The translations under genes and the position numbers were made by a program. Shown piece after piece: positions 9,777-25,910 of a stretch of DNA of 64,000 nt. How positions within the stretch are numbered: the first letter of the stretch is position 1; every line of letters begins with the position of its first letter. The DNA comes from Agreia sp. PsM10 (GTDB lineage Bacteria > Actinomycetota > Actinomycetes > Actinomycetales > Microbacteriaceae): the NCBI RefSeq assembly GCF_030433855.1, contig NZ_JARUXC010000008.1, positions 94,175 through 158,174 of the forward strand, given 5' to 3'. The notes beneath the pieces are model-generated. The model searched no databases. It saw only the letters and a program-made list of their open reading frames with translations, and was not told the origin of the DNA.

Positions 9777-11305
9777 GCCGCCGCCTCTGGTTGGCGCCTG
9801 ACGCCGGTCATGTATTCGCCGAGCTCCTGCGCATCCACATCTGCCGGGTGCAGTTCGGCGACGATGCGACCGCGGTAGAACACCAGCAGCCGGTCGGAGA
9901 GCGAGAGCAGTTCGTCGAGGTCGGCCGAGATGAGCACCGTGCCGAGACCGCGGTCGCGTGCGGCGGTGAGTTCGGTCCAGACGGCCGACTGGGCGCCGAT
10001 GTCGACGCCGCGCGTGGGGTGGGCGGCGATGAGCACATCGGGGGATGAGCCGAGTTCGCGCCCCACGATGAACTTCTGCTGGTTGCCGCCCGAGAGCGAC
10101 GAGGCGAGGCTCGCGACGGAGCCGCCGCGCACGTCGAACTTCTCGATGATCGAGGCGGCGGCCGCGGCGGCGCCGGAACGGCTGAACCACGGGCCGCGCT
10201 TGATCGGCGCCCTCGAGTGGTAGCCGAGGGCGGCGTTCTCGCGCAGGGCCATCGACAGCACGAGACCGTCTTTGTGCCTGTCCTCGGGAATGTAGGCCAT
10301 GCCGCGGGCGCGGCGCTGCTCGGTGGTCAGAGCACTGATGTCGTGTCCGCCCAGCGACACGGTGCCGGTGCTGGCGGTGCGGCCGAGAAGAGCGAGCAGC
10401 AGTTCGGACTGTCCGTTGCCCTCGACGCCGGCGATCCCGACGATCTCGCCGCTGTGCACGGCGAACGACACGTCGTCGAGCGCGGCGACCTCGCCGTCGA
10501 GACCGACGCTGAGGTTGTCGGCGGAGAGCACGACGTCGTCGCCGGGCGGCAGGGAGCGGGGGCTCACCGACGGCATCGCCACCTTGACCATCAGCGAGGC
10601 GAGTTCGGCGGCGCTGGTCTCCGACGCGATGCGGTGCCCCACCACCTCGCCCGCTCGGATCACGGTGATCTCGTCGGCGAAGTCGAGCACCTCGTCGAGC
10701 TTGTGCGAGATGAAGATCACAGCGGCGCCCGCGGCGGTGAACGCGCGCATCGCCGCGAACAGCGACTGCGCCTCGCTCGGCACGAGCACCGCCGTGGGCT
10801 CGTCGAGGATGATGATGCGGGCGCCGCGGTAGAGCACCTTGAGGATCTCCACGCGCTGCCGGCCTCCCACGCCGAGCTCGCGCACGACGGCATTCACGTC
10901 GACCGGGAAGCCGTTCGTCGCGGCGAGTTCCGCGACGCTCCGGCGGGCCGCACGGCTGTCGAGCCGCAGGGCGGAACCGGGCTCGTCGGCGAGAACCACG
11001 TTCTCCCACACGCGGAGCGCGTCGGCGAGCAGGAAGTGCTGGTGCACGATGCCGATGCCGGCGCGCTGGGCGTCGCGGGGCGACGAGAACGTGCGCGGCT
11101 CGCCCGCGATCGTGATCGTGCCCTCATCGGGGTGCTCCTCGCCGGCGAGGATCTTCATGAGGGTCGACTTGCCCGCACCGTTCTCTCCCACGATCGCGTG
11201 CACCGTGCCCGCTTTCACGGACAGGTCGATGCGATCGTTGGCGGTGAAGGTGCCGAACCTCTTGACGATGCCCGTGAGGCGCACCAGCTCTTCCTGCTTC
11301 TGCAT
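9773..11305 (-). CDS. Nucleoside-type ABC transporter ATP-binding protein (two nucleotide-binding domains)
   Basis: A 510-residue protein with two fused ABC domains, as in YufO/RbsA-type ATPases. The first domain has a full Walker A, GENGAGKST (residues 40-48), and Walker B IIILDEPTAVLVPSEA. Its signature is atypical for ABC proteins (LGVGGRQRVEI). The second domain has VEGNGQSELL in place of Walker A and the signature SLSGGNQQK, the usual asymmetry of this family. ATG 11305 is preferred over TTG 11311 because AGAAGG lies about eight bases upstream of the ATG. Confidence 0.9.
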   Translation of the reverse strand: MQKQEELVRLTGIVKRFGTFTANDRIDLSVKAGTVHAIVGENGAGKSTLMKILAGEEHPDEGTITIAGEPRTFSSPRDAQRAGIGIVHQHFLLADALRVWENVVLADEPGSALRLDSRAARRSVAELAATNGFPVDVNAVVRELGVGGRQRVEILKVLYRGARIIILDEPTAVLVPSEAQSLFAAMRAFTAAGAAVIFISHKLDEVLDFADEITVIRAGEVVGHRIASETSAAELASLMVKVAMPSVSPRSLPPGDDVVLSADNLSVGLDGEVAALDDVSFAVHSGEIVGIAGVEGNGQSELLLALLGRTASTGTVSLGGHDISALTTEQRRARGMAYIPEDRHKDGLVLSMALRENAALGYHSRAPIKRGPWFSRSGAAAAAASIIEKFDVRGGSVASLASSLSGGNQQKFIVGRELGSSPDVLIAAHPTRGVDIGAQSAVWTELTAARDRGLGTVLISADLDELLSLSDRLLVFYRGRIVAELHPADVDAQELGEYMTGVRRQPEAAA

Positions 11306-11339: not shown

Positions 11340-12386
11340 CTAGAGCGCCGACGTCACCGTGATCGTTCCGGCGATGATGTCCGCCTTGGCCTTCTCGAGC
11401 TGCTCGCTGTACTGGTCGACGAAGCCGCCCGAGGTCGAGTAGCCGACGCCGTCGTTCGACAGATCGAAGTCCTGCTCGCCCTCTTCGAGGGTTCCATCGA
11501 GGAATGCCTTGATCGAGTCCTCGACGGCCACGTTCACGTTCTTGATGGCCGAGGTCAGGATGTACGGCTTGATCGAGTCGTCGACCTGCTCGTAGACGTC
11601 GCCGTCGACCCCGATGGCCCAGTTCTTCTGGGCGTCGGTGCTGGATGCGGCCGCCTGCTCGTAGACTCCCTGGCCCGATCCGCCGGCTGCGGCGTAGATG
11701 ACGTCGGCTCCGCTGGAGTACATCGATGCCGCGGCCTCCTTGCCCTTGGTCGGGTCGGAGAATCCGGTGAAGTCACCGAGAGGAGCCAGGTAGGTGGAGT
11801 CGACCGTGATGTTCGGGTCGACCGAGGTCGCGCCGGCCTCGAAGCCGACGAAGAAGTTCTGGATGCTCGGCTGGTCGACGCCGCCGATGAATCCCACGTG
11901 GCCGGTCTTCGACGCGAGTGCCGCGGCCATGCCGACGAGGTAGGAGGACTGCTCTGCGGCGAACGAGATGGTGGTGGTGTCGGGGATGACCGTGCCCTTG
12001 TCGATGTCGACGGCGACGAACTGCGTGTCGGGGTGGTCGGTCGTCTGCTCCATGGGGGTCGCGTACTGGAACCCGATGCCGATGGCGAGGCCGGCTCCCT
12101 CGGAGATGGCGAGGTCGAGGCGGTCCTGGTAGTCGTCGGTGTTGGGGCTGGAGAGGTCGATGGGGGTGAAGTCGAGGCTGTCCTGCGCGTCGGTGAAACC
12201 CTTGTACGCGCTGTCCATGAACGAGAAGTCACCCGTCGTTCCGTAGAGCATCGCGACCTTGGGAAGGTCGGGATCGGTGCTGGCGCCCGTGGTGGCCGTC
12301 TTGCCGGAGCAGGCCGTGAGCGCGAGCGAGGCGGCGAGCACGAGGCCGCCGACCGCGAAGAGGCGAGAGCTGTGGATGCGTGACAA
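11340..12386 (-). CDS. BMP-family nucleoside-binding lipoprotein
   Basis: A 348-residue solute-binding lipoprotein of the Bmp/PnrA (basic membrane protein) family, which binds purine nucleosides in characterised members. The signal peptide ends in a lipobox LALTAC with Cys26 as the lipidation site. Family blocks include MLYGTTGDFSFMDSAYKGF, VGFIGGVDQPSIQNFFVGF and DVIYAAAGGSGQGV. TTG 12386 is chosen as start: AAGGAG lies seven bases upstream, and extensions further upstream read into the operator region. First gene of the bmp-ATPase-permease-permease-amidohydrolase operon. Confidence 0.9.
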   Translation of the reverse strand: MSRIHSSRLFAVGGLVLAASLALTACSGKTATTGASTDPDLPKVAMLYGTTGDFSFMDSAYKGFTDAQDSLDFTPIDLSSPNTDDYQDRLDLAISEGAGLAIGIGFQYATPMEQTTDHPDTQFVAVDIDKGTVIPDTTTISFAAEQSSYLVGMAAALASKTGHVGFIGGVDQPSIQNFFVGFEAGATSVDPNITVDSTYLAPLGDFTGFSDPTKGKEAAASMYSSGADVIYAAAGGSGQGVYEQAAASSTDAQKNWAIGVDGDVYEQVDDSIKPYILTSAIKNVNVAVEDSIKAFLDGTLEEGEQDFDLSNDGVGYSTSGGFVDQYSEQLEKAKADIIAGTITVTSAL

Positions 12387-12427
12387 GAGGGTCTCCTTCG
12401 GACGGTTCGATAGGGCGACGGTACGCC

Positions 12428-12441
12428 GCAAAACGCTTTGC
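12428..12441. promoter_or_regulatory. LacI-type operator, purine-locus site 1
   Basis: The 14-bp near-palindrome GCAAAACGCTTTGC with a central CG is typical of LacI-family operators. It lies 42 bp upstream of the bmp gene start. The same motif recurs at 12485, 21387 and 21524, next to a LacI gene at 21590. Function is inferred from recurrence and position. Confidence 0.7.
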
Positions 12442-12460
12442 AGTGTTTCCCGAATGTTTC

Positions 12461-12477
12461 GAGTATAAGAAATACTC
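12461..12477. promoter_or_regulatory. Palindrome GAGTAT-N5-ATACTC between two operators
   Basis: A perfect 6-bp inverted repeat with a 5-bp spacer, about midway between the two LacI-type sites in the bmp/ThuA-like divergent promoter region. Could be a site for a second regulator or part of overlapping promoters. Confidence 0.4.
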
Positions 12478-12484
12478 CGGGCGT

Positions 12485-12498
12485 GCAAAACGATTGGT
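12485..12498. promoter_or_regulatory. LacI-type operator, purine-locus site 2 (imperfect)
   Basis: GCAAAACGATTGGT keeps the left half and central CG of the site-1 motif but has a degraded right half. It lies 14 bp upstream of the ThuA-like gene start, so binding would overlap that gene's transcription or translation start region. Confidence 0.55.
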
Positions 12499-12511
12499 AT
12501 ACAGTGCTGCC

Positions 12512-13267
12512 ATGTCTCGCGTCCTGCTCCTCGGAGAATCCTGGTTCGTCTATTCGGTTCACCAGAAGGGCTTCGACTCCTTTCACACCTCGGAGTTCAC
12601 TCTGGGCGGGCAGGAGTTCGTGGCCGCCCTGCGCTCCGCCGGTCACGAGGTCACCCACATTCCGGCGCACGAGATCTCCACGCGCGTGCCCGCCGACGCC
12701 GAGGGCATCGCGGCGATCGCCGACGTCGTCGTGATCTCCGACGTCGGAGCCAACACGTTCCAGCTCCCCCCGGCCACGTTCACCCGGTCGGAGACCCAGC
12801 CCGACCGAACGGAGTCGCTGCGCGAGTTCGTGCAGCTCGGCGGCGGCCTCCTCATGGTCGGCGGCTACCTCACCTTCTCCGGCATCGACGCGAAAGCGCG
12901 GTGGGGGCGCACGCCGCTCGCCGAGGCTCTTCCCGTCGAGATCCTCGATCGCGACGACAGGGTGGAGCTGCCGGCCGGCGCCGCACCGCAGCTCGGCTAC
13001 GGGCATCCCATCACCCACGGTCTCGACGAGCAGTGGCCCGAGCTGCTCGGCCTGAACGAGGTGACCACCCGGCCGGGCGCGGCGACGCTCGCGAGCTGCG
13101 CCGGGCATCCACTGCTGGCCGTCGGCGGATACGGGGCGGGCCGCAGCGCCGCGTTCACCTCCGACCTCGCGCCGCACTGGGCGCCGCCCGCGTTCCTGAG
13201 CTGGGCGGGCTATGCCCCGCTCTTCGACCGCACGATACGGTGGCTCGCGGGGGAGGAGATCGAATGA
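12512..13267 (+). CDS. ThuA-like / glutamine-amidotransferase-fold protein
   Basis: A 251-residue protein resembling the uncharacterised glutamine-amidotransferase-like (COG5426/DUF1355-type) family. It opens with SRVLLLGESW, has VVVISDVGANTFQ, and then LREFVQLGGGLLMVGGYLTFSG. The last block is the flavodoxin-like turn where true amidotransferases carry a Cys, and no Cys is present there (GGYLTF), so amidotransferase chemistry is unlikely. Its stop overlaps the next gene's ATG by 4 bp, so it forms an operon with the deaminase-like and creatininase-like genes. Role in that pathway is unknown. Confidence 0.65.
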   Translation: MSRVLLLGESWFVYSVHQKGFDSFHTSEFTLGGQEFVAALRSAGHEVTHIPAHEISTRVPADAEGIAAIADVVVISDVGANTFQLPPATFTRSETQPDRTESLREFVQLGGGLLMVGGYLTFSGIDAKARWGRTPLAEALPVEILDRDDRVELPAGAAPQLGYGHPITHGLDEQWPELLGLNEVTTRPGAATLASCAGHPLLAVGGYGAGRSAAFTSDLAPHWAPPAFLSWAGYAPLFDRTIRWLAGEEIE

Positions 13268-14709
13268 CGAACGAGCAGGCGACCCAGGACACCGGGCGGG
13301 CATCCGCGCAGACGGTGCACACGATCGTCACCGGCGCGACGGTTCTCAGCCGCACGACCCGGCCCGCCCCGAACTACACCGAGCTGCCGCGCACCGATAT
13401 CGTGTCGCGCGGAACGGCGACGTTCCTCGACGACCATGCCATCGGCATCCGGGGCAACACGATCGCGTGGGTGAAGCCCACTGTCGACGTGACGCAGGCC
13501 GAGCGCGACACGGCGTCGACGCTCATCGACGGCCGCGGCCACGTGGCCATTCCCGGGCTCATGAACTCGCACACGCACTCGCCGATGACGATGTTCAGAG
13601 GCTCGGCCGAAGACGTGCCCACCAGCGAGTGGTTCAACGCCCACATCTGGCCGATGGAGGTCAATCTCACGGAGCGCGATGTGACCCTCGGGGCGCAGCT
13701 CGCCGTGGGCGAGATGCTGCTGGCCGGTGTCACGAGCTTCGCCGACCACTACTTCTCGACCGACCGCATCGCGGAGGTCGTGGCCTCGAGTGGCGCGCGG
13801 GCGCTTCTCGCATCCACGTTCTTCTCGTCGCAGGGCGAGGAGGGGATCGAGCGCTCGGCCGCATTCGCCGAGCGATGGAACGGAGCCGCCGACGGGCGCA
13901 TCACCACCGCGATGGGCCCGCACGCGACCTACACGGTGAACGACGCCGACCTCGAGAAGACCGCCGAGCACTCGCGTCGGCTCGGAGTGCGCACGCACAT
14001 CCACGCGTCGGAGAGTCCGTCGCAGACGCGCTCGAGCCTCGACCGGCTCGGGGTCACGCCCATCCAGGTGCTGCACGACACCGGCATCCTCGAGACCGGG
14101 ACCATCATCGCTCACGGCGCGGGCATCATCGAAGACGACCTGCGCTGGCTCACGCCCTGGGCCGACCGGGTCGCGGTCGCCTCGTGCAGCAAGGTCTACC
14201 TCAAGCACGCCCAGTCGGGCGGAACCCCCGTGAAGATGCTGCACGACGCCGGCATCACCGTGGGTGTCGGCACCGACGGCCCTGCATCGCACAACACCCT
14301 CGACGTGCTCGAGAGCGTGCGGTTCCTCTCGATGGTGCAGAAGGACGTGCACAGCGACGCCACGTGGCTGACTTCGCAGCACGCCCTCGACCTCGCGACC
14401 CGGCAGAGTGCGGATGCGTTCGGGCTCGGCGATTCGCTGGGTGCGCTTCTGCCCGGGTACATCGCCGACATCGTGCTGATCGACACGCTCGTTCCGCACA
14501 TGCAGCCGATGCACGACCTGGCGGCGGCGCTCGTGCTCAGCGTCAAGTCCTCCGACGTGCGCACGGTGCTCGTCGACGGGCGCGTCGTCGTGTCGGGCGG
14601 GCGGCTCACCACGATCGACGTGGTGGGCGTGGCCGAAGAGCTGCAGCAGCGGGTGCCCGCGCTGAAGGACACGTCGCACGGCCGTTCCATCCAGGACTAC
14701 GCGCCGTGA
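13264..14709 (+). CDS. TRZ/ATZ-family amidohydrolase (SAH/MTA deaminase-like), paralogue A
   Basis: A 481-residue metal-dependent hydrolase of the branch that includes S-adenosylhomocysteine/methylthioadenosine deaminases, guanine deaminase and chlorotriazine hydrolases. Metal and catalytic residues are visible: NSHTHSP (His103, His105), HIHASE (His245/247, Glu250), IAHG (His284) and GTDG (Asp338). It is co-transcribed with the ThuA-like and creatininase-like genes. It is clearly paralogous to the enzyme at 15531-16895, sharing almost every motif block. An aminopurine-type deaminase is a fair guess given the phosphorylase and importers nearby; the substrate is not proven. Confidence 0.82.
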   Translation: MTNEQATQDTGRASAQTVHTIVTGATVLSRTTRPAPNYTELPRTDIVSRGTATFLDDHAIGIRGNTIAWVKPTVDVTQAERDTASTLIDGRGHVAIPGLMNSHTHSPMTMFRGSAEDVPTSEWFNAHIWPMEVNLTERDVTLGAQLAVGEMLLAGVTSFADHYFSTDRIAEVVASSGARALLASTFFSSQGEEGIERSAAFAERWNGAADGRITTAMGPHATYTVNDADLEKTAEHSRRLGVRTHIHASESPSQTRSSLDRLGVTPIQVLHDTGILETGTIIAHGAGIIEDDLRWLTPWADRVAVASCSKVYLKHAQSGGTPVKMLHDAGITVGVGTDGPASHNTLDVLESVRFLSMVQKDVHSDATWLTSQHALDLATRQSADAFGLGDSLGALLPGYIADIVLIDTLVPHMQPMHDLAAALVLSVKSSDVRTVLVDGRVVVSGGRLTTIDVVGVAEELQQRVPALKDTSHGRSIQDYAP

Positions 14710-15440
14710 TCGAGGCGGCTCGCTCGACCTGGCCGGAGGTGGCCGCGCACGTCGCCGCCACGTCGGGCGTCGCCATCCTGCCGTTCGGCGCGCTCGAGCA
14801 GCACGGGCCGCAACTGCCGCTGTCGACCGACACCGCGACCGCCCAGGAGGTCGCCCGGCGGCTGGCGACCCTGCTCGACGCGGTGCTGCTGCCGCCGGTG
14901 CACTACGGAGAGACCTGGAACAACGCGGGCTACCCCGGAACCGTCTCGTTGTCGCCGGGCACCGTGACCGCGATCGCCAAGGACATCGGAGCCTCGCTCG
15001 TTCTCTCGGGCGTGCGCGCGCTCGTGATCGTGAACGGCGACTGGGGCAATCGCGAGCCGCTCGCCCGCGCCGTGAAGGAGCTCGTCGACGAGGGTGTGAT
15101 CCCGGCGATCGTGCTCGACTACCCGGGCATGGATGCCGCCATCGACGAGGTGCGCGAGTCGCGGCCCGCTGCTCCCGGGCTGAACCACGCCGAGGAGGTC
15201 GAGACCTCGATCATGCTCGCGATCGATCCGTCGAGCGTGCATCCCGAGCGCTACGTCGCCGAGTATCCGGTGTTTCCGCCGGAGTTTGGAACCGTGCCGA
15301 TGCAGCTGCACCCCTTCTCTCCGAGCGGAGTGTTCGGCGACCCGTCGAGCGCCACGGCCGCCAAGGGGGAGTACATCCTCGCCCGCACGGTGGAGGCCTC
15401 CCTCGCAGCGCTGAAAACCTTCCTCGCCAACCTCCCGTAG
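14706..15440 (+). CDS. Creatininase-family protein with altered metal-site motif
   Basis: A 244-residue member of the creatininase/MftE amidohydrolase family. The opening metal motif GALEQHGPQLPLSTDT is intact (Glu31, His33, Asp42), and HAEEVETSIM later supplies the conserved His/Glu block. The usual NGHGGN motif reads NGDWGN (residues 110-115), so a family metal-ligand His is replaced by Asp112. It may bind a different metal or have altered activity. GTG 14706 overlaps the previous stop by 4 bp, so it is the last gene of the ThuA-like operon. A role in opening a cyclic amide in the same pathway is inferred. Confidence 0.78.
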   Translation: MIEAARSTWPEVAAHVAATSGVAILPFGALEQHGPQLPLSTDTATAQEVARRLATLLDAVLLPPVHYGETWNNAGYPGTVSLSPGTVTAIAKDIGASLVLSGVRALVIVNGDWGNREPLARAVKELVDEGVIPAIVLDYPGMDAAIDEVRESRPAAPGLNHAEEVETSIMLAIDPSSVHPERYVAEYPVFPPEFGTVPMQLHPFSPSGVFGDPSSATAAKGEYILARTVEASLAALKTFLANLP

Positions 15441-15453
15441 CTCTTACATGCCT

Positions 15454-15523
15454 GCGCCTGTTGCCGAGAACGACGGATGTTTCCGGTCGCCGGGGAACGT
15501 CCGTCGCGCCGGGTAACAGGCGC
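15454..15523. terminator. Long imperfect hairpin at convergent gene ends
   Basis: Arms 15454-15481 and 15496-15523 are 28 nt and match at about 21 positions, including GCGCCTGTT with AACAGGCGC at the base. It lies between the 3' ends of the creatininase-like gene and the converging amidohydrolase, so it probably ends transcription from both sides. No U-tract is visible. Confidence 0.6.
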
Positions 15524-15530
15524 CGCTAGC

Positions 15531-16895
15531 CTAGGCGTCGTAGTTCTGGATGCTCCTGCCGTGGCTTCTGTCGGTCAGGCGGGCCAGGCGCGGCTGGAGT
15601 TCGGCGACCACGGCGGGGATATCGATGGTGAGCACCTTCTTGCCGCGCATGAGCACCCGGCCGGCGGCGATCGTGGTGTCGATGTCGTTCGAGCGCGCGC
15701 TGTAGACGAGCATGTTGGCGTAGTCGTGGATCGGCTGGTTGCGCGGCTCCGACAGGTCGACGAGCACGAGGTCGGCCTGGTACCCGGGGGCGAGGCGTCC
15801 GATGCTGTCTCCGAGCTGCACGGCCCGGGCGCTCTTGATCGTGGCGTGTCCCAGCACCTGGCGTGAGGTCAGGTAGGTCTGGTCCCGTTCGAGCGCCTTC
15901 TGGGTCAGCGCCATGAACGTCATGCTCTCCCACACGTCGAGGGTGTTGTTCGAGGCGGCCCCGTCGGTGGCGAGGCCCACGGGGATGCCCGCCGATTCGA
16001 GCAGGCGCACCGGTGTGGTGTCCGGCCCGTGCTTCAGGTATCCCTTGGGCGCGCTGCCGATGCCGATGCTCCCCGTCGCGGCGAGGAACAGCGGCAAATC
16101 CTCCGCCACGATGCCGATGCCGTGCGCGATGAGCAGCTTTCCGTCGAGCAGCCCCGCGCGGCGCAGGGTCTCGATGGGGGTGTGGCCGAAGCGCTCGCGG
16201 CTGTGCTTCATCTGGTAGCGCGCCTCCGAGGCGTGGATGTGCACGAGGAGGTCGTTGTCGCGGGCCGCCTCGGCGGTCTTCGCGAGGTCGTCGTCGGTCA
16301 CCGTGTAGGGCGCGTGCGGTGCGAGCGCGGTGGTGATGCGGCCGTCGGCGGCTCCGCGGTTCTCGACCGCGAACTGCAACGATCGCTCCAGCCCGGCCTC
16401 GCCGTCGGAGGAGAAGTAGGTGGAGCCGAGCACCCCGCGCAGCCCGCTTTCGTCGGTGACCCGGGCGATCGCATCCATGTTGAAGTAGTGGTCGGCGAAC
16501 GTCGTGACGCCGCTGCGGATCATCTCGGCGGCCGCCAGCCTGGTCGCCAGCTCGACGTCGTCATCGGTGAGGTTCACCTCCATCGGCCAGATGAAGTCGT
16601 TGAACCACGTGTCCTCGGGAACGTCTTCGGCGGCGCCGCGGAACATCACCATCGGCGAGTGTGTGTGGCAGTTGATGAAGCCGGGCATGGCGAGCATTCC
16701 GGATGCGTCGATCGTCTCGAGCGCGGGAATGGGTCGTTCCGAGGGCGGCCGGGATGCGGAGATCGATTCGATGAGCCCGCCGCGCACGACGATGGTCTGG
16801 TTCTCGGCGAAATCGACCTCGCCGGCGTCGGTGTGAACGAGCACGACCGCGTTCGTGATGACGAGGTCGGCGGGGGCGGGCTGCGGATCGGTCAT
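15531..16895 (-). CDS. TRZ/ATZ-family amidohydrolase (SAH/MTA deaminase-like), paralogue B
   Basis: A 454-residue amidohydrolase paralogous to the enzyme at 13264. Metal and catalytic residues are in the same positions: NCHTHSP (His77, His79), HIHASE (His219/221), IAHG (His258) and ATDG (Asp311). Long blocks such as FRGAAEDVP, IWPMEVNLT and SHGRSIQNY are shared with paralogue A. The ATG at 16895 has AAGGAG eight bases upstream; an ATG two codons earlier sits too close to it. Last gene of the NMT1-importer/phosphorylase operon, 31 bp after deoD. Probable aminopurine-like deaminase; exact substrate unknown. Confidence 0.82.
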   Translation of the reverse strand: MTDPQPAPADLVITNAVVLVHTDAGEVDFAENQTIVVRGGLIESISASRPPSERPIPALETIDASGMLAMPGFINCHTHSPMVMFRGAAEDVPEDTWFNDFIWPMEVNLTDDDVELATRLAAAEMIRSGVTTFADHYFNMDAIARVTDESGLRGVLGSTYFSSDGEAGLERSLQFAVENRGAADGRITTALAPHAPYTVTDDDLAKTAEAARDNDLLVHIHASEARYQMKHSRERFGHTPIETLRRAGLLDGKLLIAHGIGIVAEDLPLFLAATGSIGIGSAPKGYLKHGPDTTPVRLLESAGIPVGLATDGAASNNTLDVWESMTFMALTQKALERDQTYLTSRQVLGHATIKSARAVQLGDSIGRLAPGYQADLVLVDLSEPRNQPIHDYANMLVYSARSNDIDTTIAAGRVLMRGKKVLTIDIPAVVAELQPRLARLTDRSHGRSIQNYDA

Positions 16896-16926
16896 GATCA
16901 TGCTCCTTCGGTGCGCGGGGCGGGGG

Positions 16927-17625
16927 CTACTGCAGCGCCGCGAGGGCGAACGACACCATGTCGGCGAAGGTGGCCTCGCGCTCGGCGGCCGTCATCTCCG
17001 AGCCGGGCAGGTCGCTGATCGTGCCCACCATCAGGGCCTCGAACTTCTCCTTGAGGGCGACCGCGTAGAGCCCGGCCGCCTCCATGTCGATGCCGATCGT
17101 GCCGTAGGCCAGCAGCTTGTCGACGAGTGTCGTGTCGGGGTTGTAGAAGCTGTCGGTGGTGAACAGCGGGCCCACGTGGATGGTCTTGCCCGTCGCCTCG
17201 CCATGCTCGACGGCCTTGCGCAGCAGCGGGAACGAGGGCGCGTGGCTGAGGGTGACCCCGGGAACCCACTCGGTCGTCATGTTCGAGTTCGTGTGGGCGG
17301 CCGAGGCGGCGACCACGTCGCCGAGCTCGAGGTAGGGCGCGATGCCGCCGATGGTTCCGACCCGGATGATGCGGGTCACGTCGTAGAAGCGGGCCAGCTC
17401 GGTCGCGTAGATCGCCATCGAGGGCATTCCCATGCCCGAGGCGAGGACCGAGATCGGCTTGCCGTTGAAGGTTCCCGTGTAGCCGAGGATGCCGCGCACC
17501 TCGGTGACGAGCTGCGGATCGTCGAAGAAGGTCTCGGCGATGAGCTTGGCCCTGCGGGGATCGCCGGGCATCAGAACGTCGGGGGCGAAGGCTCCGGCGT
17601 CGGCGCCGATGTGGGGAGTGGCCAT
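16927..17625 (-). CDS. deoD: Purine nucleoside phosphorylase, DeoD type
   Basis: A 232-residue hexameric-type purine nucleoside phosphorylase that splits purine nucleosides with phosphate into base and (deoxy)ribose 1-phosphate. It opens MATPHI with the His that reaches into the neighbouring subunit's site. It has the phosphate-binding GDPRRAK, VRG and RVGT segments, the ribose-binding MEAAG, and a catalytic Asp in ISDLPGSE followed by the helix-forming AAER. Compared with E. coli DeoD, the loop after the catalytic Asp is a few residues shorter and lacks the HIRTHEQ text, so base preference may differ. It lies between the fused permease and paralogue B. Confidence 0.88.
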   Translation of the reverse strand: MATPHIGADAGAFAPDVLMPGDPRRAKLIAETFFDDPQLVTEVRGILGYTGTFNGKPISVLASGMGMPSMAIYATELARFYDVTRIIRVGTIGGIAPYLELGDVVAASAAHTNSNMTTEWVPGVTLSHAPSFPLLRKAVEHGEATGKTIHVGPLFTTDSFYNPDTTLVDKLLAYGTIGIDMEAAGLYAVALKEKFEALMVGTISDLPGSEMTAAEREATFADMVSFALAALQ

Positions 17626-17657
17626 GATGTGTCGTCTTTCTTCTGGGGCGGGCGGGG

Positions 17658-19343
17658 TCAGCCGAGCTGCGAGGGTGCGTAGCGCGACAGCACGGCGCGC
17701 TCGGCGGCGCTGACCAGGCTGTAGAAGATGAGGGAGACGGCGGTGAGGATCGCGGCCGCCGCCCAGAGCCCGGTGTAGTCGGAGTGCGCCCGCGAGCTCA
17801 CGATCTCGTGGCCGAGGCCGTCGCCGGTCGCGAGCCACTCGGCGAGGGTCGCGGCCAGCACCGCCGTGGGAGCCGCGATGCGCGCTGAGGCGAAGATGGC
17901 GGGCAGCGTGTAGGGCAGCTGCAGGCGCCACAGCGTGCTCCAGACTGAGGAGTCGTAGCTGCGCAGCAGCGTGAACGCGTCGGACGGAACTCGTTTCAGC
18001 CCGCCCTGCGTGTTCGCCAGAGTCGGGAAGAAGGTGACGATCGCGGTGATGGCGACGACACCTCCGAGCCCGCGACCGAGGGCGAGAATCAGCACCGGCG
18101 TGAGCACGATGATGGGAACCGAGCGCAGGGCGACGGCCAGGGGCGTGAGCACCCGTTCCACGACGGGGAACAGAACGAACGACACCGCGGCCGCGATTCC
18201 GATCACGAGTCCGGCGATGTAGCCGACTCCGGCGTGGACGAGGGTCACGCCCAGCGCGTCGAGCATCACGGCGCGGTTCTCGCTCGCCTCTTCGGCGGTG
18301 AACAGGTAGGTGAACACGTCGATCGGCGACTTGCCCACGAACGGCGACATGTCGAACACGATGAGGTAGGCCCACCACGCGGCGAGGATCACGAGGATCG
18401 ATCCGACCGTCCAGGCCGCGGCGCGCACGGCACGGGTTCCGAGGGATCCGCGCAGCGCCGGCGCCGCCTGCTGGGCGTTCGAGATCGTTGCCGACCACGG
18501 AGTGAGCCAGCGTCGCAGGAGGCCGAAGAGACCGTAGGGCACGGCGGCCATCAGGGTCGCGATCACGGCGACCGACCACACGCGGGCCAGGTCGAGCGAC
18601 ATCAGGCCGTTGATGAGCAGCACGCCCAGACCGGCCTTCGCCCCGATGAACTCGCCGAAGATCGCGCCGAGCACGGCCGCGGCGGCGCCGATCTGCAGCC
18701 CGGTGAGAATCGACGGGGTGCCCGACGGCAGCCGCACGAAGCGCAGCGAGCTGAGCGCCCGCCCGCCCCACGCCGTGACCATCGTGAGCGGGCCGCCGTC
18801 GGCGGAGCGCAGCCCCAGCATCGTGCCGACCAGAGTGGTGAAGAACACCGACAGGCCCGCGAGTACGACCTTGGCGGTGTCGGGGTCGAAGGTCAGCTGC
18901 AGCAGCGGGTTGACCGCGACGAGCGGCAGGCAGAACAGGGTGAGCGCCAGCCGCAGGAACAACGACTCGAGGGCCGGAAGCTGCACGAAGAGGATCGCCA
19001 CGACGATGGCCGCCAGGTTCCCCCAGAACCACCCGCGCACCGCGATCCACGCCGTGCTGGTGAAGGCTCCGAAATACAGCTGCGGCTCGGTGACCAGGCT
19101 CTGGATGATCGCGCTCGGCGACGCGAGCACGCCCAGTTGCGTGAGCGCGACGTCGGCCAGGATCTCCCACAGGACGACGAGAGCGACGCTCACGAGCGCG
19201 GTGGTCACCCACCCCGACAGGGCGGAGCGGCGGCCGGCGCGCTGGGAACGCGCGCGTTCGGCGACGATCGCCTCCTGCTGCGCCGGCGTGTACCGTGAGG
19301 CGGCCGGCGAGGTCGAGGCCGGTGTCGAGGTCGACACGCTCAC
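17658..19343 (-). CDS. Two-in-one ABC importer permease (NMT1/SsuC-type, fused)
   Basis: A 561-residue membrane protein carrying two BPD_transp_1 permease units in one chain. The ATPase-contacting loops occur twice, with [20 protein letters not shown] in the first half (about residue 200-220) and [19 protein letters not shown] in the second (about residue 470-490). Each half has about six helices. Most importers of this class use a ~260-residue homodimeric permease, so the fusion is unusual and implies fixed, asymmetric halves. Its GTG overlaps the ATPase stop by 4 bp. Confidence 0.85.
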
Positions 19344-20134
19344 GCCTCGACCGCCTGCAGGGACTCCTCATCGGCGCCCGCGTGCAGCAGCGAACTCAGC
19401 TCGTCGCAGGCCGCGTGGAACTCGGGGGTCGAGAGCAGTTCGCGGCGTCGGGGCCGCTCGAAGTCGATGGTGATGTCGCCCACGATCCGCCCCGGCCGGG
19501 GCGACATGACGATCACGCGGTCGGCCAAAAAGGCCGCCTCCGAGATCGAGTGGGTCACGAGAAGGGCGGTCGCGCTCGTGGCACTCCAGAGCTTCTGCAG
19601 CTCCTCGTTCATGCGCTGGCGGGTGATCTCGTCGAGGGCGCCGAACGGCTCGTCGAGAAGCAGGATCTCGGGTTCTGCGACGATCGCCCGCGCGATCGCG
19701 ACCCGCTGGCGCATGCCGCCCGACAATTGCGACGGTCGCGCATCCGCGAAGCCGTCGAGCCCGACGAGCGTGATCAACTCGTCGATGCGGCTCTTCGGAA
19801 TGCCGACGCCCATGACCTGGCCGGGCAGGCGGATGTTGTCTCGAACGCTGCGCCACGGCAGCAGCGACGGGTCCTGCAGGGCGAGGCCCAGCCGATGGGC
19901 GGTGCGGATCGACGAGGGGCTCTCGCCGTGGATCGTCACCTCGCCCGCCGAGTACGACTCGAGGTCGGCCAGGATGCGGAGGATCGTGGACTTGCCGCAG
20001 CCCGACGGGCCGAGGAGCGCGGTGAACGACCCCTGGGGCACGGCGAGGGAGATGTCGTCGAGTGCGAGAACATCGCTCTTCTTCGACGAGTAGACCTTCG
20101 TCAGGTTGCTGAGGGTGAAGCCGGTGCCGTCCAC
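19340..20134 (-). CDS. ABC importer ATP-binding protein (SsuB/TauB/ThiZ-like)
   Basis: A 264-residue nucleotide-binding subunit with Walker [11 protein letters not shown]-loop [14 protein letters not shown], signature QLSGGMRQR, Walker [13 protein letters not shown] and switch His in LVTHSISEA. This matches ATPases of nitrate/sulfonate/taurine and HMP-type importers. GTG 20134 is preferred because AAGGA lies eight bases upstream. The open frame reaches GTG 20209, but that start is buried in a strong hairpin (20178-20215) and its extension is low-complexity His/Pro-rich. Confidence 0.85.
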
Positions 20135-20177
20135 GTCGGGTGTCCTTGTCGTCGAGTGCGGGTGGTGCGAGTGGATG

Positions 20178-20215
20178 CCGCGGGTGGGGGGCGTCGGGTG
20201 CGCCCCCACCCGCGG
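20178..20215. terminator. Strong 13-bp hairpin between binding-protein and ATPase genes
   Basis: A perfect 13-bp inverted repeat, CCGCGGGTGGGGG with CCCCCACCCGCGG, and a 12-nt loop, placed 9 bp after the binding-protein stop inside the operon. It would reduce read-through or protect upstream mRNA, favouring more binding protein than membrane components. There is no U-tract. Confidence 0.65.
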
Positions 20216-20224
20216 CGGTCGGTT

Positions 20225-21313
20225 CTACTGCAGGCTGGACTTGCCGCCGTAGATGTCGTCGAGCAGGGAGTTGTCGAAGAGCGACGAGTCGACTCCGGTG
20301 ATGCCGAGGGTCGTGAGCGTGTCGACGTTCTTCTCGATGCCCTCGTCGGACATCCAGAACAGGCCGTGCTCGTCGGTCTCGTCGGTCACGAGCAGATCCA
20401 TCTGGCGCTCGGCCTGCTTGGTCTGCTCCTCGACCGTGAGGCCTCCGTCTTTCGCGTAGTCGTTGACCGTGAGGTCGACGGCCTCGGTGGGATCGGCGAC
20501 ATAGCTCTGCCATCCCTCGATCTCTCCCTTGAGGAAGCCCTCGATGGCCGCCTTCTTGGCCGGGTCCTCGAGGGACTCCTTCGTGACGGCGTAGACCTGC
20601 GCGTAGACATCGAGCCCGAAGTCGGCGGTGAGGAAGGTGACTCCCTCTTTTCCGGTCGACTCCTCGTAGGCGATGGGCTGCTCGCTGTAGAAGACCCAGA
20701 GGCCGTCGACCTCGCCGCTGACCAGCGGGGCGACGTCGAAGCCGACCGGCACCGACGTGACCTTCGAGGCGTCGACGTCATTGACCTCGAGCAGCGCGTC
20801 CTGCGCCGCCTCGTCGCCGCTGGGAACGCCGATCTTCATCCCCTCCATGTCGGCCGGGGTGGCGATCGGCTTGTCGGGGCTCGAGAGGATCGCGAGGGGG
20901 TTCTTCTGGAATCCTGCGGCGATGATCACGAGGTCGGCGCCCTGCTCGTTGGCACGGGCGACGGTGTCGGCGTTGCCCATTCCGATGTCGGCCTGGCCCG
21001 AGACAACCGCGGCCATCGAGTCGACGTCGGGGCCGCCGGGCAGGATGTCGACGTCGACGCCGTTTTTGGCGTAGTACCCCTCGGAGTCGGCGACGTAGCT
21101 GCCGCCGAACTGCACGAGCGGGATCCACGAGGTCTGCAGGGTGAGGGCGACCGGACTGTCGGAGGACGGGGTCTCGGAACTGGCACTGCTGCTGCAGCCG
21201 GCGAGCGCCAGCACGGCCGACAGGCCCAGGGCGGCGCCGGCGAGCAGCCTCGTGGGGCGTCGGGCGGGGGAGGGGCGGGAGGTGCTGAGGGTGAAGGGGG
21301 AACGGGAGTGCAT
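20225..21313 (-). CDS. NMT1/THI5-like ABC substrate-binding lipoprotein
   Basis: A 362-residue lipoprotein with a signal peptide ending LALAGC (Cys40). The mature part is NMT1/THI5-like: LTLQTSWIPLVQFGGSYVA, GYYAKNGVDVDILPGG and VVSGQADIGMGNADTVARA match the pyrimidine/thiamine-precursor binding fold, also used for other small heterocycles and sulfonates. It feeds the ATPase and fused permease. The link to PNP and deaminase-like genes suggests a nucleobase-like ligand, which is inference. ATG 21313 has TAGGAG at good spacing. First gene of a five-gene operon ending at 15531. Confidence 0.85.
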   Translation of the reverse strand: MHSRSPFTLSTSRPSPARRPTRLLAGAALGLSAVLALAGCSSSASSETPSSDSPVALTLQTSWIPLVQFGGSYVADSEGYYAKNGVDVDILPGGPDVDSMAAVVSGQADIGMGNADTVARANEQGADLVIIAAGFQKNPLAILSSPDKPIATPADMEGMKIGVPSGDEAAQDALLEVNDVDASKVTSVPVGFDVAPLVSGEVDGLWVFYSEQPIAYEESTGKEGVTFLTADFGLDVYAQVYAVTKESLEDPAKKAAIEGFLKGEIEGWQSYVADPTEAVDLTVNDYAKDGGLTVEEQTKQAERQMDLLVTDETDEHGLFWMSDEGIEKNVDTLTTLGITGVDSSLFDNSLLDDIYGGKSSLQ

Positions 21314-21386
21314 TGATTCTCCTAAGCGGGTGGGAGGCTCTGGCGGGCATGCGGCAGGCGCACAGGACTGTGGTGCGGGTCGGGCT

Positions 21387-21400
21387 GCAAATCGTTTTGC
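21387..21400. promoter_or_regulatory. LacI-type operator, purine-locus site 3
   Basis: GCAAATCGTTTTGC, a 14-bp near-palindrome with central CG matching the motif at 12428. It lies 74 bp upstream of the NMT1-like binding-protein start, in the region divergent from the LacI gene. Confidence 0.7.
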
Positions 21401-21523
21401 GACTTCTCTGTCCGACGCTACGGGCAGTGTGTTTCAGCCCGATTTCTTCCTGTTTCTGGACTGTAAAAGAAAGGCGCTCGCCCGCTCGGGTCGTACCTCT
21501 CTTATGCGGTCGAGTTTTCGGTC

Positions 21524-21537
21524 GCAACTCGTTTTGC
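21524..21537. promoter_or_regulatory. LacI-type operator, purine-locus site 4
   Basis: GCAACTCGTTTTGC shares the right half and central CG of the other three sites. It is 53 bp upstream of the LacI regulator's GTG, consistent with autoregulation. Confidence 0.65.
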
Positions 21538-21589
21538 AAAATGCGACACAGGGTCGTGAGTGCGCGGTTCTCTCGGTTACTGTGAGTTC

Positions 21590-22606
21590 GTGACCGACAC
21601 CCCATCGAAGCCGTGGACCATGCAGCAGATCGCTGCCGCCGCCGGCGTGAGTGTCACCACCGTGTCGCACACCCTCTCGGGAAAGCGACCCGTGAACCCC
21701 GCGACGGCCGAGCGCATCCAGAAGCTGATCGCCGAGTTCGAGTACGTTCCCGACTCCGGCGCCCAGCGCCTCAAGTCCGGGCGCAGCGGAATGATCGGCC
21801 TGGCCGTGCCCGACATCTCGCACTGGTACTTCGGTCGCATCGCGCGCGGCGTCGAGGAGGTGGCCGACGAACTCGACTACGGACTCATCATCTGCAGCAC
21901 GTCGAACTCCGACCCGCGCCGGGAGAAGCGCTACTTCAACCTGCTGCGCACCCGGTCGATCGAAGGGCTGATCTACACCGCGAGCAGGGAGATCTCGGCG
22001 AGCGACGAACTCGTGCGGGTGTCGGGCAGCTCGCCCATCGTCTTCGCCGACGAGAGGGTCGACGCCCTGCCCGACGTTCCGTCGGTCACCTCGAGCAACT
22101 TCGTGGGGGCGCAGGTGCTCGGCCGGCACCTGCGCGACCTCGGGCACACCCGGGCCGTCATCATCGCCGGGTTCGCGGGCCTGCACTCGACGATCGAGCG
22201 CACCAAGGCCATCAAGGAGTCGTTCCCGAATGCGCTGACTCTGCACGGCGACTTCGAGCTGAAGTCGGGCTACGACCTCGTCTCCGACCTGCTCGCCCAC
22301 GAGGTGAGGTTCACCGCGCTCTTCGGCTGCAACGACTACATGGCGATCGGCGCCATGACCAGGCTCCGCGAGGCCGGCCTGCGCGTTCCCGAAGACGTCT
22401 CCGTGGTCGGGTTCGACGACGTCGACATGGCCGCGATCGTCACCCCGGGGCTCACCACGGTACGACAGGACATGGCCGAGATCGGCCGACGCTCGGCGCA
22501 CCTGCTCATCGCCGGGCTCCACGCGGGCGGCTTCGACGCCGTCGAATCGGAGTCGCTGCCGACAGAGCTCATTCTGCGCGGCTCGACAGGCCCCGCGCCG
22601 CAGTAG
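21590..22606 (+). CDS. LacI-family regulator, probable controller of the nucleoside locus
   Basis: A 338-residue LacI/GalR-type repressor. The N-terminal helix-turn-helix and hinge read MQQIAAAAGVSVTTVSHTLS, then a periplasmic-binding-protein-like core with GLAVPDISHWYFGRIARG, HTRAVIIAGFAG and SVVGFDDVDMAAIVTPGLTT. GTG 21590 is used because it starts directly before the DNA-binding domain. It is divergent from the NMT1-type importer operon and surrounded by two copies of a palindrome also present in front of the bmp and ThuA-like operons. The effector is probably a purine or nucleoside; inferred. Confidence 0.88.
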   Translation: MTDTPSKPWTMQQIAAAAGVSVTTVSHTLSGKRPVNPATAERIQKLIAEFEYVPDSGAQRLKSGRSGMIGLAVPDISHWYFGRIARGVEEVADELDYGLIICSTSNSDPRREKRYFNLLRTRSIEGLIYTASREISASDELVRVSGSSPIVFADERVDALPDVPSVTSSNFVGAQVLGRHLRDLGHTRAVIIAGFAGLHSTIERTKAIKESFPNALTLHGDFELKSGYDLVSDLLAHEVRFTALFGCNDYMAIGAMTRLREAGLRVPEDVSVVGFDDVDMAAIVTPGLTTVRQDMAEIGRRSAHLLIAGLHAGGFDAVESESLPTELILRGSTGPAPQ

Positions 22607-22766: not shown

Positions 22767-25283
22767 CTACGCGTTATCTCCGCCGGTCTCGTCGACGGCC
22801 TGCATGTTCTGCCGGTCGAAGCCCACGCCGTCGTCTCCCGACCACAGCCACTGGGCCACCTCGGGAATGTCCTCGCCGTGCTCGCGCGTGTACTGCCGGG
22901 CGCGCATGCGGGCATCCTGCATGTCCTGCCGCAGCGCGGCGGCCTTCGACCCCAGCCCGGGCACCCTGTCGATCACGTCGATCACCAGGTGGTACCGGTC
23001 GAGGTTGTTCAGCATGAGCATGTCGAACGGCGTGGTGGTCGTGCCGTTCTCGATGAAGCCGCGCACGTGCAGGTTCGCGTTCGCCGCCCGGCGGTAGGTC
23101 AGGCGATGGATGAGCCACGGGTAGCCGTGGTAAGCGAACACGATGGGCTTGTCGGTCGTGAAGATGGTGTCGAAGTCGCGGTTCGACAGGCCGTGAGGAT
23201 GCTCGGTCTCGTCCTGCAGGCGCATCAGGTCGATCACGTTCACGACGCGCACGCGCAGCTCGGGCAGGTGCTTGCGCAGAAGGGATGCGGCCGCGAGCGT
23301 CTCGATGGTCGGAATATCGCCGGCGCACGCGAGCACGATGTCGGGCTCGTCGCTCGGCCGCTCCGTGCCGGCCCAGTCCCAGATCCCCAGGCCGCGAGTG
23401 CAGTGCGCCACCGCCTCCGGCATGCTGAGCCACTGCGGCCCCGGCTGCTTGCCGGCGACGACCACGTTGATGTAGTCGACGCTGCGCAGGCAGTGGTCGT
23501 AGGTCGACAGAAGGGTGTTCGCGTCGACGGGCAGGTACACCCGAACGACGTCGGCCTTCTTGTTCACGACGTGGTCGATGAAGCCCGGGTCCTGGTGGCT
23601 GAAGCCGTTGTGGTCCTGCCTCCAGACGTGGCTCGAGAGCAGGTAGTTGAGGCTCGACACGGAGCGACGCCACGGAATCGATCGCGCGACCTGCAGCCAC
23701 TTGGCGTGCTGGTTGAACATCGAGTCGACGATGTGGATGAACGCCTCGTAGCAGTTGAACAGTCCGTGTCGGCCGGTGAGCAGGTAGCCCTCGAGCCAGC
23801 CCTGGCACTGGTGCTCCGACAGCATCTCCATGACGCGACCGGCGCGGGCCAGGTTCAGGTCGACCGGCAGGATCTCGGCGTTCCACTGCTTGTCGGTCGC
23901 CTCGTACACCTCCTGCAGGCGGTTGGATGCCGTCTCGTCGGGCCCGAAGATGCGGAAGTTGTCGGGGTTCATGCGAATGACGTCGGCGAGCCAGCCGCCG
24001 AGCACCTTCGTGGCCTCGGCCGTCTCGTGACCGGGCGCCGTGACGTCGACCCCGTACTCGCGGAAGTCCGGCATCCGGAGCTCGCGTCGCAGCAGCCCGC
24101 CGTTCGAATACGGCGTCGCGCTCATGCGCAGGTAGCCCTCGGGCGCGAGACCGGTGACGAACGGGGTCGGTGCGCCGGATGAATCGAAGAGCTCCTCCGG
24201 CTTGTACTTCTTCATCCACGACTCGAGCAGGCGGGTGTGCGCCTCGGTGTCGCGGGCGCTCGCCAGCGGAACCTGGTGCGCGCGCCACGTGTTCTCCACG
24301 GGCAGGCCGTCGATCTCGGCGGGGCAGGTCCAGCCCTTGGGCGTGCGCAGGATGATCATGGGCCAGCGGGGAGTTCCCTCGAGGGTGCCATCGGCCGCGT
24401 CCTGCTTGATGGCGGCGATCTCGTTGAGCACGGTGTCGAGCGTCTCCGCCATGCGGGCGTGAACGAGCAGCGGATCCTCGCCGTCGAAGCCGCCCGACAC
24501 GATGTGCGGGTTGTGTCCGTAGCCGCGCATCAGCGCGAGCAGGTCTTCTTCGGGGATGCGCGCCAGCACGGTGGGATTGGCGATCTTGTAGCCGTTGAGG
24601 TGCAGGATCGGCAGCACGACGCCGTCCTGCAGCGGGTCGATGAACTTGTTGGAGTGCCACGCCGTGGCGAGCGGGCCGGTCTCGGCCTCGCCGTCGCCGA
24701 TCACCGCGGCCACGAGGAGGTTCGGGTTGTCGAACGCGGCTCCGTAGGCGTGCGAGAGGGAGTAGCCCAGCTCGCCGCCCTCGTTGATCGACCCGGGGGT
24801 CTCGGGCGCCGCGTGGCTCGGGATTCCGCCGGGGAAGCTGAACTGTCGGAACAGCCCGCGCATCCCGTCGACCGACTGGTCGATCTTCGAGTAGATCTCG
24901 GAGTAGGTGCCGTCGAGCCAGGCATTGGCCACCATGCCGGGGCCGCCGTGGCCGGGGCCCGCGATATAGAGCGTCGGCAGCGAACGGTGCCGGATCATGC
25001 GGTTGAGATGGGCGTAGACGAAGTTCAGACCGGGGGTGGTTCCCCAGTGGCCGAGCAGGCGCGGCTTCACGTCGTCGCGGCTGAGCGGACGTTCGAGCAG
25101 CGGGTTGTCGAGCAGGTAGATCTGTCCCACGGAGAGGTAGTTGGCGGCCCGCCACCAGGCATCGACCTGAAGCAGCGCCTCGCCCTCGAGCGGCTCGGCC
25201 GGCCGCTGATACCAGGGGTTGTGCGCGTCACGCGGAATGACGGGCGACTGCATGGCGTCGATGGTGGATGCGGAACCGGTCAT
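22767..25283 (-). CDS. xfp: Phosphoketolase (xylulose-5-P / fructose-6-P)
   Basis: An 838-residue thiamine-diphosphate enzyme that cleaves xylulose 5-phosphate and often fructose 6-phosphate to acetyl phosphate plus glyceraldehyde 3-phosphate or erythrose 4-phosphate. Visible blocks are [36 protein letters not shown], and [14 protein letters not shown] with the following [13 protein letters not shown], which forms the ThDP/metal motif. Further on come [13 protein letters not shown] and PVDANTLLS. Length matches the family. ATG 25283 is preceded by AAGGAG at seven bases; an upstream in-frame start lacks this. Single gene. Confidence 0.93.
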
Positions 25284-25325
25284 GGAACGTCTCCTTAGGC
25301 ACTGCACGGGGTAGTGCTGCTCATC

Positions 25326-25697
25326 CTAGGCGCGCGGTGTGTCCATTCGGGAGGAGCTTGACGACCGTGCAGAACGGGATGCGCGCCACGCCTTCCACCG
25401 GGAGAGCGCGTTCGCGAGGACCCGCTTCAGCCACTGCCCCACGCGGTGCGCGGCGGGGAACTCGGTGCCGAGAATGGCGATTCCGAGGAACACGATCAGC
25501 CAGCCCGGACCGGGCAGGGGCACGAGGATGAGCCCTCCGATCACGACGATCGCACCCAGCACTCCGACGGCGAAGCGGTAGGCGAACCGGATGCGCGGGT
25601 GCCGCTCGACCCAGGCACGGGCACGGCGCAGGGCGCGGCGCACCGGATTCTGCGGGCTCTCGCCGATCTCGATCTCTCGGGTGAGGGTGTCGGTCAT
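25326..25697 (-). CDS. Small PGPGW-type membrane protein
   Basis: A 123-residue protein of the TIGR02611/PGPGW family. A basic N-terminus precedes two hydrophobic stretches, GVLGAIVVIGGLILVPLPGP and IVFLGIAILGTEFP, joined by the diagnostic PGPGW. The C-terminus is Arg/Ser-rich. Function unknown, probably inner membrane. It lies 42 bp upstream of the phosphoketolase on the same strand, but it ends before that gene's promoter region and co-transcription is uncertain. Confidence 0.75.
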   Translation of the reverse strand: MTDTLTREIEIGESPQNPVRRALRRARAWVERHPRIRFAYRFAVGVLGAIVVIGGLILVPLPGPGWLIVFLGIAILGTEFPAAHRVGQWLKRVLANALSRWKAWRASRSARSSSSSRMDTPRA

Positions 25698-25747
25698 CGC
25701 TTCACGGTAGGCGAGAACCCTCCCGGTTGCCTGAGCAGAGCGTCGCT

Positions 25748-25797
25748 CCGTGAGCCTGACGAAGGGCATGCGTCCCGTTCCCTGAGCTTGTCGAAGG
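25748..25797. repeat. Two REP-like elements upstream of the fructose operon
   Basis: A degenerate copy near 25748-25767 (CCGTGAGCCTGACGAAGGGC) and a good copy at 25777-25797 (GTTCCCTGAGCTTGTCGAAGG). They lie in the divergent region between the PGPGW gene and the DeoR regulator. Confidence 0.65.
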
Positions 25798-25819
25798 ACA
25801 TCCAAAATCTTTGTTTATC

Positions 25820-25848: not shown

Positions 25849-25910
25849 CACATCACAACACAGCCAGACGCAGGTTCACGGACGAATCGAAAGACGAGGT
25901 CAACGACGAC

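Follow-up and report, generated by a model that had tools for sequence, protein, structure and literature searches.

Which regulator controls the 14 genes, most of them for predicted importers and hydrolytic enzymes, that form four transcription units in Agreia sp. PsM10, a member of the Microbacteriaceae? The locus lies in a 64-kb stretch of DNA, here called the window (positions 94175–158174 of contig C95), from a genome of 4.01 Mb assembled in 106 contigs. The initial annotation had proposed that one LacI palindrome ties the four units into a nucleoside regulon. We find four palindromes in the two divergent promoter regions of the locus. All four are likely bound by the local LacI-family protein, hereafter LacI1, which would then repress lacI itself and 13 genes with predicted roles in the import and degradation of nucleoside-like compounds.

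Four palindromic sites in two divergent promoter regions

The first region separates nmt1 from lacI, whose position at 21590 was confirmed and which has a GTG start. The second separates bmp from a gene described earlier as ThuA-like. Here the divergent arrangement stands, but the encoded protein belongs to PF07090 (GATase1_like), and we refer to the gene as GAT1. All four near-palindromes lie at the previously reported positions. O1, GCAAATCGTTTTGC (21387–21400), closely follows the predicted nmt1 –10 element and is one of only two exact matches to the motif GCAAANCGNTTTGC in the genome. The other is O3, GCAAAACGCTTTGC (12428–12441), downstream of the predicted bmp –10 element. O2, GCAACTCGTTTTGC (21524–21537), stands upstream of lacI and is the sole place in the genome with one mismatch. 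O4, GCAAAACGATTGGT (12485–12498), is degenerate, with two mismatches; it overlaps the predicted bmp –35 element and is separated by a single base from the –10 element predicted for GAT1.

The symmetric core of the motif is GCAAA-N-CG-N-TTTGC, centred on CG. According to those parts of PMC4052901 on which we draw, LacI-family motifs are even palindromes in the great majority of cases, and a central CG is characteristic. GCAAANCGNTTTGC shows both traits, in keeping with its predicted role as an operator.

Within the genome, the two exact places (12428 and 21387) and the single one-mismatch place (21524) all fall in the locus, so the occurrence of the motif is clearly non-random, a check that the initial annotation had called for. 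With O2 in front of lacI, this is the pattern of a local, autoregulated LacI regulon. At lower stringency the genome-wide signal is lost: 39 two-mismatch places are listed genome-wide, 12485 among them, and places with up to three mismatches number 754, compared with 944 for the reversed control. Since this count does not exceed its control, the specificity is carried by the best matches. In the window alone, the pattern GCAAAACGNTTTGC has 15 matches with up to three mismatches against a shuffle mean of 6.0, and 15 was reached in one of 100 shuffles.

When the window is scored with a position matrix derived from 23 nmt1/lacI sites outside Agreia, the four sites take the top four ranks, with scores of 27.5, 25.2, 24.7 (O3) and 19.2 (O4); the next best place scores 12.6. 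In 4 Mb of first-order random sequence, equal or better scores occurred 0, 0, 0 and 1 times for the four sites, respectively. The training sites had been located with the window-derived pattern, and the matrix test is thus only partly independent. Taken together, the four sites are real and above chance. As one of 39 two-mismatch places, O4 would be insufficient on its own. It is backed by its matrix rank and by three Subtercola genomes whose GAT1 promoters contain similar sites, all of which adjoin TACNGT, as O4 does in the window.

Two further groups of candidates were rejected. A fifth copy, GCAAAACG at 4254, lies within an open reading frame with DUF222/HNH domains and is not palindromic. 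Two-mismatch places in the rest of the genome were also set aside as targets, since the pattern does not exceed background there.

Conservation at the nmt1/lacI region

Close orthologues of LacI1 (at least 65% identity) are present in 9 of 398 genomes of the family, PsM10 included (13 pass at E 1e-70), and in 2 of 8 genomes of the genus. The locus is therefore patchily distributed. The LacI1 of PsM10 is 98% identical to the LacI of Agreia sp. Leaf283. For comparison we used 15 distinct LacI1-bearing genomes, represented by the window and loci L027–L037, L128, L145 and L150. Duplicate genomes, recognised by their similar contig numbers and coordinates, were counted once (G002 = G060, L027; G018 = G069, L036; G194 = G061, L028; G356 = G063, L030; G285 = G068, L035).

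O1 is exact in 14 of the 15 genomes, the exception being L145 with two mismatches. O2 differs from the motif at one position in 12 of the 15 and at two positions in two Subtercola genomes. In an alignment of the nmt1/lacI intergenic region with 13 rows (the near-copy L027 dropped, L150 absent), O1 is the most conserved of 257 windows of 14 bp, and O2 is the most conserved beyond the surroundings of O1. A whole-genome search of 12 distinct relatives placed all 14 exact motif matches in this locus. The expected conservation of the motif in relatives is hence borne out at nmt1/lacI; at bmp/GAT1 it is conditional, with 14-bp sites at bmp in two of seven relatives and at GAT1 in three Subtercola genomes.

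DNA looping between O1 and O2 was considered and rejected, as their spacing ranges from 90 to 137 bp without a common helical phase. Given this variation, each operator probably serves its own promoter.

One of the loci compared, L037, comes from a record (BADC01000074.1) titled Corynebacterium-like bacterium B27, and is Herbiconiux-like. Its LacI1 groups with that of H. ginsengi, so the label of the record may be wrong.

Predicted promoter anatomy and mode of repression

In the nmt1/lacI region, a sigma-70 scan detected no promoter of the E. coli type. On the nmt1 strand, a GAAAC element (GAAAT in L145) is followed after 10 nt by TANNNT in all 14 regions compared, and O1 starts 35–38 nt past the start of GAAAC. 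In PsM10 the predicted –10 element is TAGCGT (21415–21420, minus strand). O1 thus lies just past the –10 element, the position at which a bound repressor would block transcription. Upstream of lacI, TACTST occurs 6–7 nt ahead of the GTG codon in 12 of 14 regions (TACAGT in L128, TACGCT in L145), a distance that suggests a leaderless mRNA. The PsM10 version, TACTGT (21578–21583, plus strand), ends 6 nt before GTG. The nmt1/lacI region also holds three terminator-like stems, compared with 0.4 in shuffled sequence, and two of them run into O1 or O2.

For bmp, the sigma-70 scan predicted the promoter TTTGCA-16-TATACT (12462–12489, minus strand). O4 overlaps its –35 element, and O3 is found 20 nt downstream of the –10 element. 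The predicted –10 element of GAT1, TACAGT (12500–12505, plus strand), was read from the sequence and missed by the scan; it sits 6 nt before the ATG, and its transcript is also predicted to be leaderless. In the three Subtercola genomes, the O4-like site shares one base with TACAGT or TACTGT, and a longer leader follows.

From this layout we propose a simple scheme. LacI1 would bind all four sites and repress its own gene and the 13 genes of the three other units, which would serve the import and degradation of nucleoside-like compounds. Bound at O1, LacI1 would block the nmt1 unit, and at O2, upstream of the leaderless lacI, it would repress its own synthesis. O4, which adjoins the GAT1 –10 element and overlaps the bmp –35 element, would together with O3 allow repression of both units of the second region. 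A substrate or breakdown product would release LacI1 from its operators.

Whether a small molecule releases or recruits LacI1 bears on when the genes would be on. Among solved structures, LacI1 matches PurR (1jh9, E 1.7e-35), and purines are described as PurR co-repressors in the part of PMC4052901 considered here. It could accordingly be argued that LacI1 is PurR-like, uses a purine co-repressor and turns its genes on at starvation. We consider this unlikely: the ribose repressor 9ny7 (E 1.5e-44) and CcpA 1zvv (E 7.5e-37) match better, and the genes look catabolic and are adjacent to lacI. Local LacI regulators of catabolic genes are usually relieved by substrate. We therefore favour induction by a substrate or breakdown product.

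Candidate repressors of the bmp/GAT1 region

In the relatives, the bmp/GAT1 half of the locus may be accompanied by further LacI proteins, the LacI1 paralogue LacI2 or the unrelated LacI3. In a tree with midpoint rooting, LacI1, LacI2 and the LacI of genus g67 share one branch (98/100) and all have TTVSH helices, whereas LacI3 forms a separate group with the helix VATASR. The LacI2 rows do not form a single clade, and the placements of L145 and L149 are unsettled. The tree takes in 12 of the 32 other LacI matches of the PsM10 genome.

The type of motif follows the type of repressor. We compared ten regions served by LacI1 or LacI2, where LacI1 is alone (two Agreia, three Subtercola) or the region lies before a LacI2 gene (L122, L123, L125, L128, L145). 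The 14-bp site with up to two mismatches is present in all ten and the 12-bp motif GYAAWCGWTTRC with up to one mismatch in none. In the five bmp regions served by LacI3 (L122, L124, L125, L126, L127) the 14-bp site is absent and two 12-bp sites are found in each, both exact in L124 and one exact plus one with a single mismatch in the other four. As the 12-bp motif was derived from the LacI3 regions themselves, its presence there is descriptive. L122 and L125 carry LacI3 and LacI2 in tandem, with the matching motif before each. In some relatives, half of the locus thus seems to answer to another repressor with a motif of its own. The three genus-g67 loci (L146–L148) follow the LacI1 pattern: each has two motif sites with 0–1 mismatches. 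Their LacI is 50–54% identical to LacI1 and stands beside a different BMP-type importer and creatininase-like and deaminase-like genes (the creatininase-like gene of L147 was called by tblastn at 62–66%).

These results also bear on the idea that the motif copies are due to chance, or to a common promoter element that has nothing to do with LacI. The lack of genome-wide enrichment at three mismatches and the weakness of O4 would fit it. We regard it as highly improbable in view of the confinement of exact and one-mismatch places to the locus, the location of all 14 exact matches in relatives, the matrix ranks, the top conservation of O1 and the tracking of repressor type by motif type (10/10 versus 0/5).

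Which protein, then, would occupy O3 and O4 in Agreia? At E 1e-30, LacI3 had no match in eight of nine genomes searched (PsM10, Leaf283, the three Subtercola, G033, H. daphne and G083) and was present in G063. For LacI2, the best match in PsM10 apart from LacI1 reaches just 38%. With neither LacI2 nor LacI3 in the PsM10 genome, the closest candidate to bind the four sites is LacI1. Nevertheless, the genome holds 33 matches to LacI1, and helices were read in 29 of the others. Two paralogues, L165 and L173, share the helix SVTTVSH with LacI1, and a third, L159 (G000:C53:263357), has SMSTVSH and a two-mismatch place, GCAAAACGTTTCGA, 43 bp upstream of its matched start. One of these paralogues might bind the bmp/GAT1 sites, which would place the locus under two regulators. 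We judge this decidedly unlikely. The matrix trained on nmt1/lacI sites picks the bmp/GAT1 sites, and Subtercola, which has neither LacI2 nor LacI3, retains sites in both regions. In addition, the palindromes upstream of L165 are of the CAAAAACGTTTTGG type with different spacing, and 460 bp inspected at L173 contain no palindrome of the GCAAA type. The GCAAAACGTTTCGA site is probably L159's own operator.

Several observations weigh against control of the whole locus by LacI1. O4 is degenerate, S. boreus (L035) is missing O2, and the variable O1–O2 spacing leaves looping unsupported. L149, a distant LacI2-like locus (42% identity to LacI1), has neither motif in the 350 bp searched. Crosstalk is possible, given the paralogues with a LacI1-type helix and the GCAAAACGTTTCGA site upstream of L159. 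Moreover, bmp orthologues (at least 83%) were found in seven distinct relatives among the 12 searched, and 14-bp sites stand at the bmp promoter in two of them, the near-copy Agreia Leaf283 and G033, which has LacI2; the other five have LacI3. Predicted LacI1 control of bmp itself is consequently seen only in two Agreia genomes. The three Subtercola genomes have no bmp orthologue (best match 33–34%); their 14-bp sites sit before GAT1, with an amidohydrolase or another gene on the other side. The claim that one LacI motif ties the four units together is therefore upheld in its locus specificity and its retention at nmt1/lacI, and qualified at bmp/GAT1, where the motif varies with the repressor type.

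The variation may record a series of repressor exchanges. In the ancestral Microbacteriaceae arrangement, the nmt1 half would have been under LacI1 and the bmp/GAT1 half under the paralogue LacI2 or the unrelated LacI3. Agreia would then have lost its local repressors, and the bmp half would have passed to LacI1 by way of 14-bp operators. In some Herbiconiux, the bmp promoter would instead have been rewritten to the 12-bp LacI3 operator. Combined with GlnR, discussed below, this would amount to a consolidation from three repressors to one and to an AND gate for nitrogen and substrate. We offer this history tentatively, as a possibility with slightly more to be said against it than for it.

A GlnR-like box in the nmt1 promoter

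The initial annotation named LacI as the only regulator. This is correct for the 14 locus genes, among which lacI is the single regulator gene, but a conserved GlnR-like box suggests a second regulator acting in trans. The predicted box, TTTAC-n6-GAAAC-n5-GAAAT-n6-GAAAC (21431–21467, minus strand), lies in the nmt1 promoter between O1 and O2 and agrees with the consensus at 15 of 18 positions. The part of PMC10704036 that we used quotes the actinobacterial GlnR consensus as gTnAc-n6-GaAAc repeats. Scoring against it allowed middle spacers of 5–7. With an a-b-a-b repeat of GTnAC-n6-GAAAC, the box reaches 14–16 of 18 positions in all 14 nmt1/lacI regions, though with a middle spacer of n5, and such scores were reached by none of 60 shuffles of each. 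Like the actinobacterial boxes described in that part of PMC10704036, it consists of TTTAC/GAAAC elements spaced by 11 bp, here ahead of the predicted nmt1 –10 element; the middle spacer is 5 bp here and 6 bp in the known boxes.

A genome search with the full consensus returned three matches, compared with one in the reversed control. Two stand before a glutamine synthetase gene (box 16) and an ammonium transporter gene (box 15). The third (L181, 1501–1538, three mismatches) lies between genes of the pyrimidine-nucleoside-phosphorylase and amidohydrolase types and may be due to chance. In the Agreia bmp promoter a GlnR box is unsupported (11 of 18 positions, a score that 30 of 60 shuffles also attained). 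Of the bmp regions in LacI3 genomes, L122 (15) and L125 (14) have a supported box (0/60 shuffles), and the three others have a weak one.

We regard GlnR control of nmt1 as likely. GlnR would bind between O1 and O2, and the unit would then need both nitrogen limitation and substrate. A stronger version, in which nitrogen status mainly governs the nmt1 branch through GlnR and LacI1 merely fine-tunes it, draws on the presence of the box in every region and on the high-scoring boxes at the two nitrogen genes. It seems to us unlikely, considering the 5-bp middle spacer, the unsupported bmp box, the small margin over the reversed control and the shared descent of the 14 regions, which are far from independent.

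Gene content and predicted function

Gaps within the four units are at most 45 bp, and several genes overlap. Unit 1 (12389–6118, minus strand) begins with bmp (11340–12389, TTG start), whose product is a binding lipoprotein of the BMP/PnrA type (PF02608) that matches TmpC (2fqw, E 4.7e-30) and other BMP lipoproteins. It is followed by a double ABC ATPase of the BMP importer (9773–11305, family match), permeases 1 (8679–9776) and 2 (7372–8667), both PF02653, and an amidohydrolase resembling Arg-carboxypeptidase and Xaa-Pro dipeptidase (6118–7326, family match). Unit 2 (12512–15440, plus strand) comprises GAT1 (12512–13267), whose product matches STM1381 (3soz, E 1.9e-64), the TRZ/ATZ-family deaminase A (13264–14709) and a creatininase-family amidohydrolase (14703–15440, PF02633).

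Unit 3 (21313–15531, minus strand) starts with nmt1 (20225–21313), encoding a substrate-binding lipoprotein (PF09084). This has two matches to solved chains in all, one of them the ThiY-type binder 3ix1 (E 1.1e-14), a pyrimidine-precursor type. The ATPase of this NMT1-type importer (19340–20209, family match), a fused permease with two BPD_transp_1 stretches (17658–19343), a DeoD-type purine nucleoside phosphorylase (16927–17625, E about 1e-58 to DeoD-type chains) and the TRZ/ATZ-family deaminase B (15531–16901) complete the unit. Both deaminases are assigned by family match and resemble the methylthioadenosine/S-adenosylhomocysteine (MTA/SAH) deaminase 4f0r and its kin. Unit 4 (21590–22606, plus strand) consists of lacI, with PF00356 (E 9.9e-14) and PF13377 (E 5.7e-31) and the helix SVTTVSH in its product.

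The locus likely serves the uptake and deamination of purine-nucleoside-like compounds. The DeoD-type phosphorylase, the BMP/PnrA-type importer and the MTA/SAH-type deaminases speak for the nucleoside regulon proposed earlier. That proposal is tempered by the match of the NMT1 protein to pyrimidine-precursor-type binders; the NMT1 importer and the creatininase-like, GATase1-like and carboxypeptidase-like proteins have no assigned substrate. The label 'nucleoside' is a fair inference from the types of enzymes and binders.

Beyond lacI, a phosphoketolase gene (22767–25307, minus strand) is arranged tail to tail with it and is followed by a DeoR-type regulator gene (25446–26696, plus strand). The window scan gave no motif site with 0–2 mismatches for these genes, which we exclude from the regulon. 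Among the 14 loci scanned, a phosphoketolase beside lacI occurs only in those of Agreia Leaf283.

Relation to known LacI systems

Local LacI regulons are a known and ordinary kind of system. In the portion of PMC4052901 considered here, AdeR, HpxR and UriR are LacI regulators of nucleoside use. Compared by description, the Agreia system resembles them in its LacI domains, even palindrome with central CG, local regulon, site before its own gene and predicted nucleoside genes. It differs in its NMT1 importer, two TRZ/ATZ deaminases, creatininase-like and GATase1-like proteins, which are absent from the gene sets described in that portion, and in its 14-bp core, theirs being mostly 16–22 nt.

The operators invite two further comparisons. 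The cre-type consensus of CcpA, TGAAANCGNTTTCA, likewise spans 14 bp and leaves one base free on either side of CG; the half-site here is GCAAA and the regulator is local, whereas CcpA is global. The core of the PurR operator, GCAAACGTTTGC, has a GCAAA-type half-site as well, and the PurR recognition helix likewise ends in His. The half-sites are two bp wider apart here than in PurR; the 12-bp LacI3 motif has PurR-like spacing. A literature search for the locus and for LacI regulons in Microbacteriaceae did not find the regulon, its operators or the repressor swap.

An unannotated cluster thereby becomes a testable regulon of 14 genes with exact predicted operators and promoter anatomy. For several enzymes without a known substrate this provides a lead to function, in which Agreia would obtain nitrogen and carbon from nucleoside-like compounds. 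In the relatives, the same promoter appears with different LacI proteins and matching operator spacing, which may offer a ready system for the study of repressor and operator exchange.

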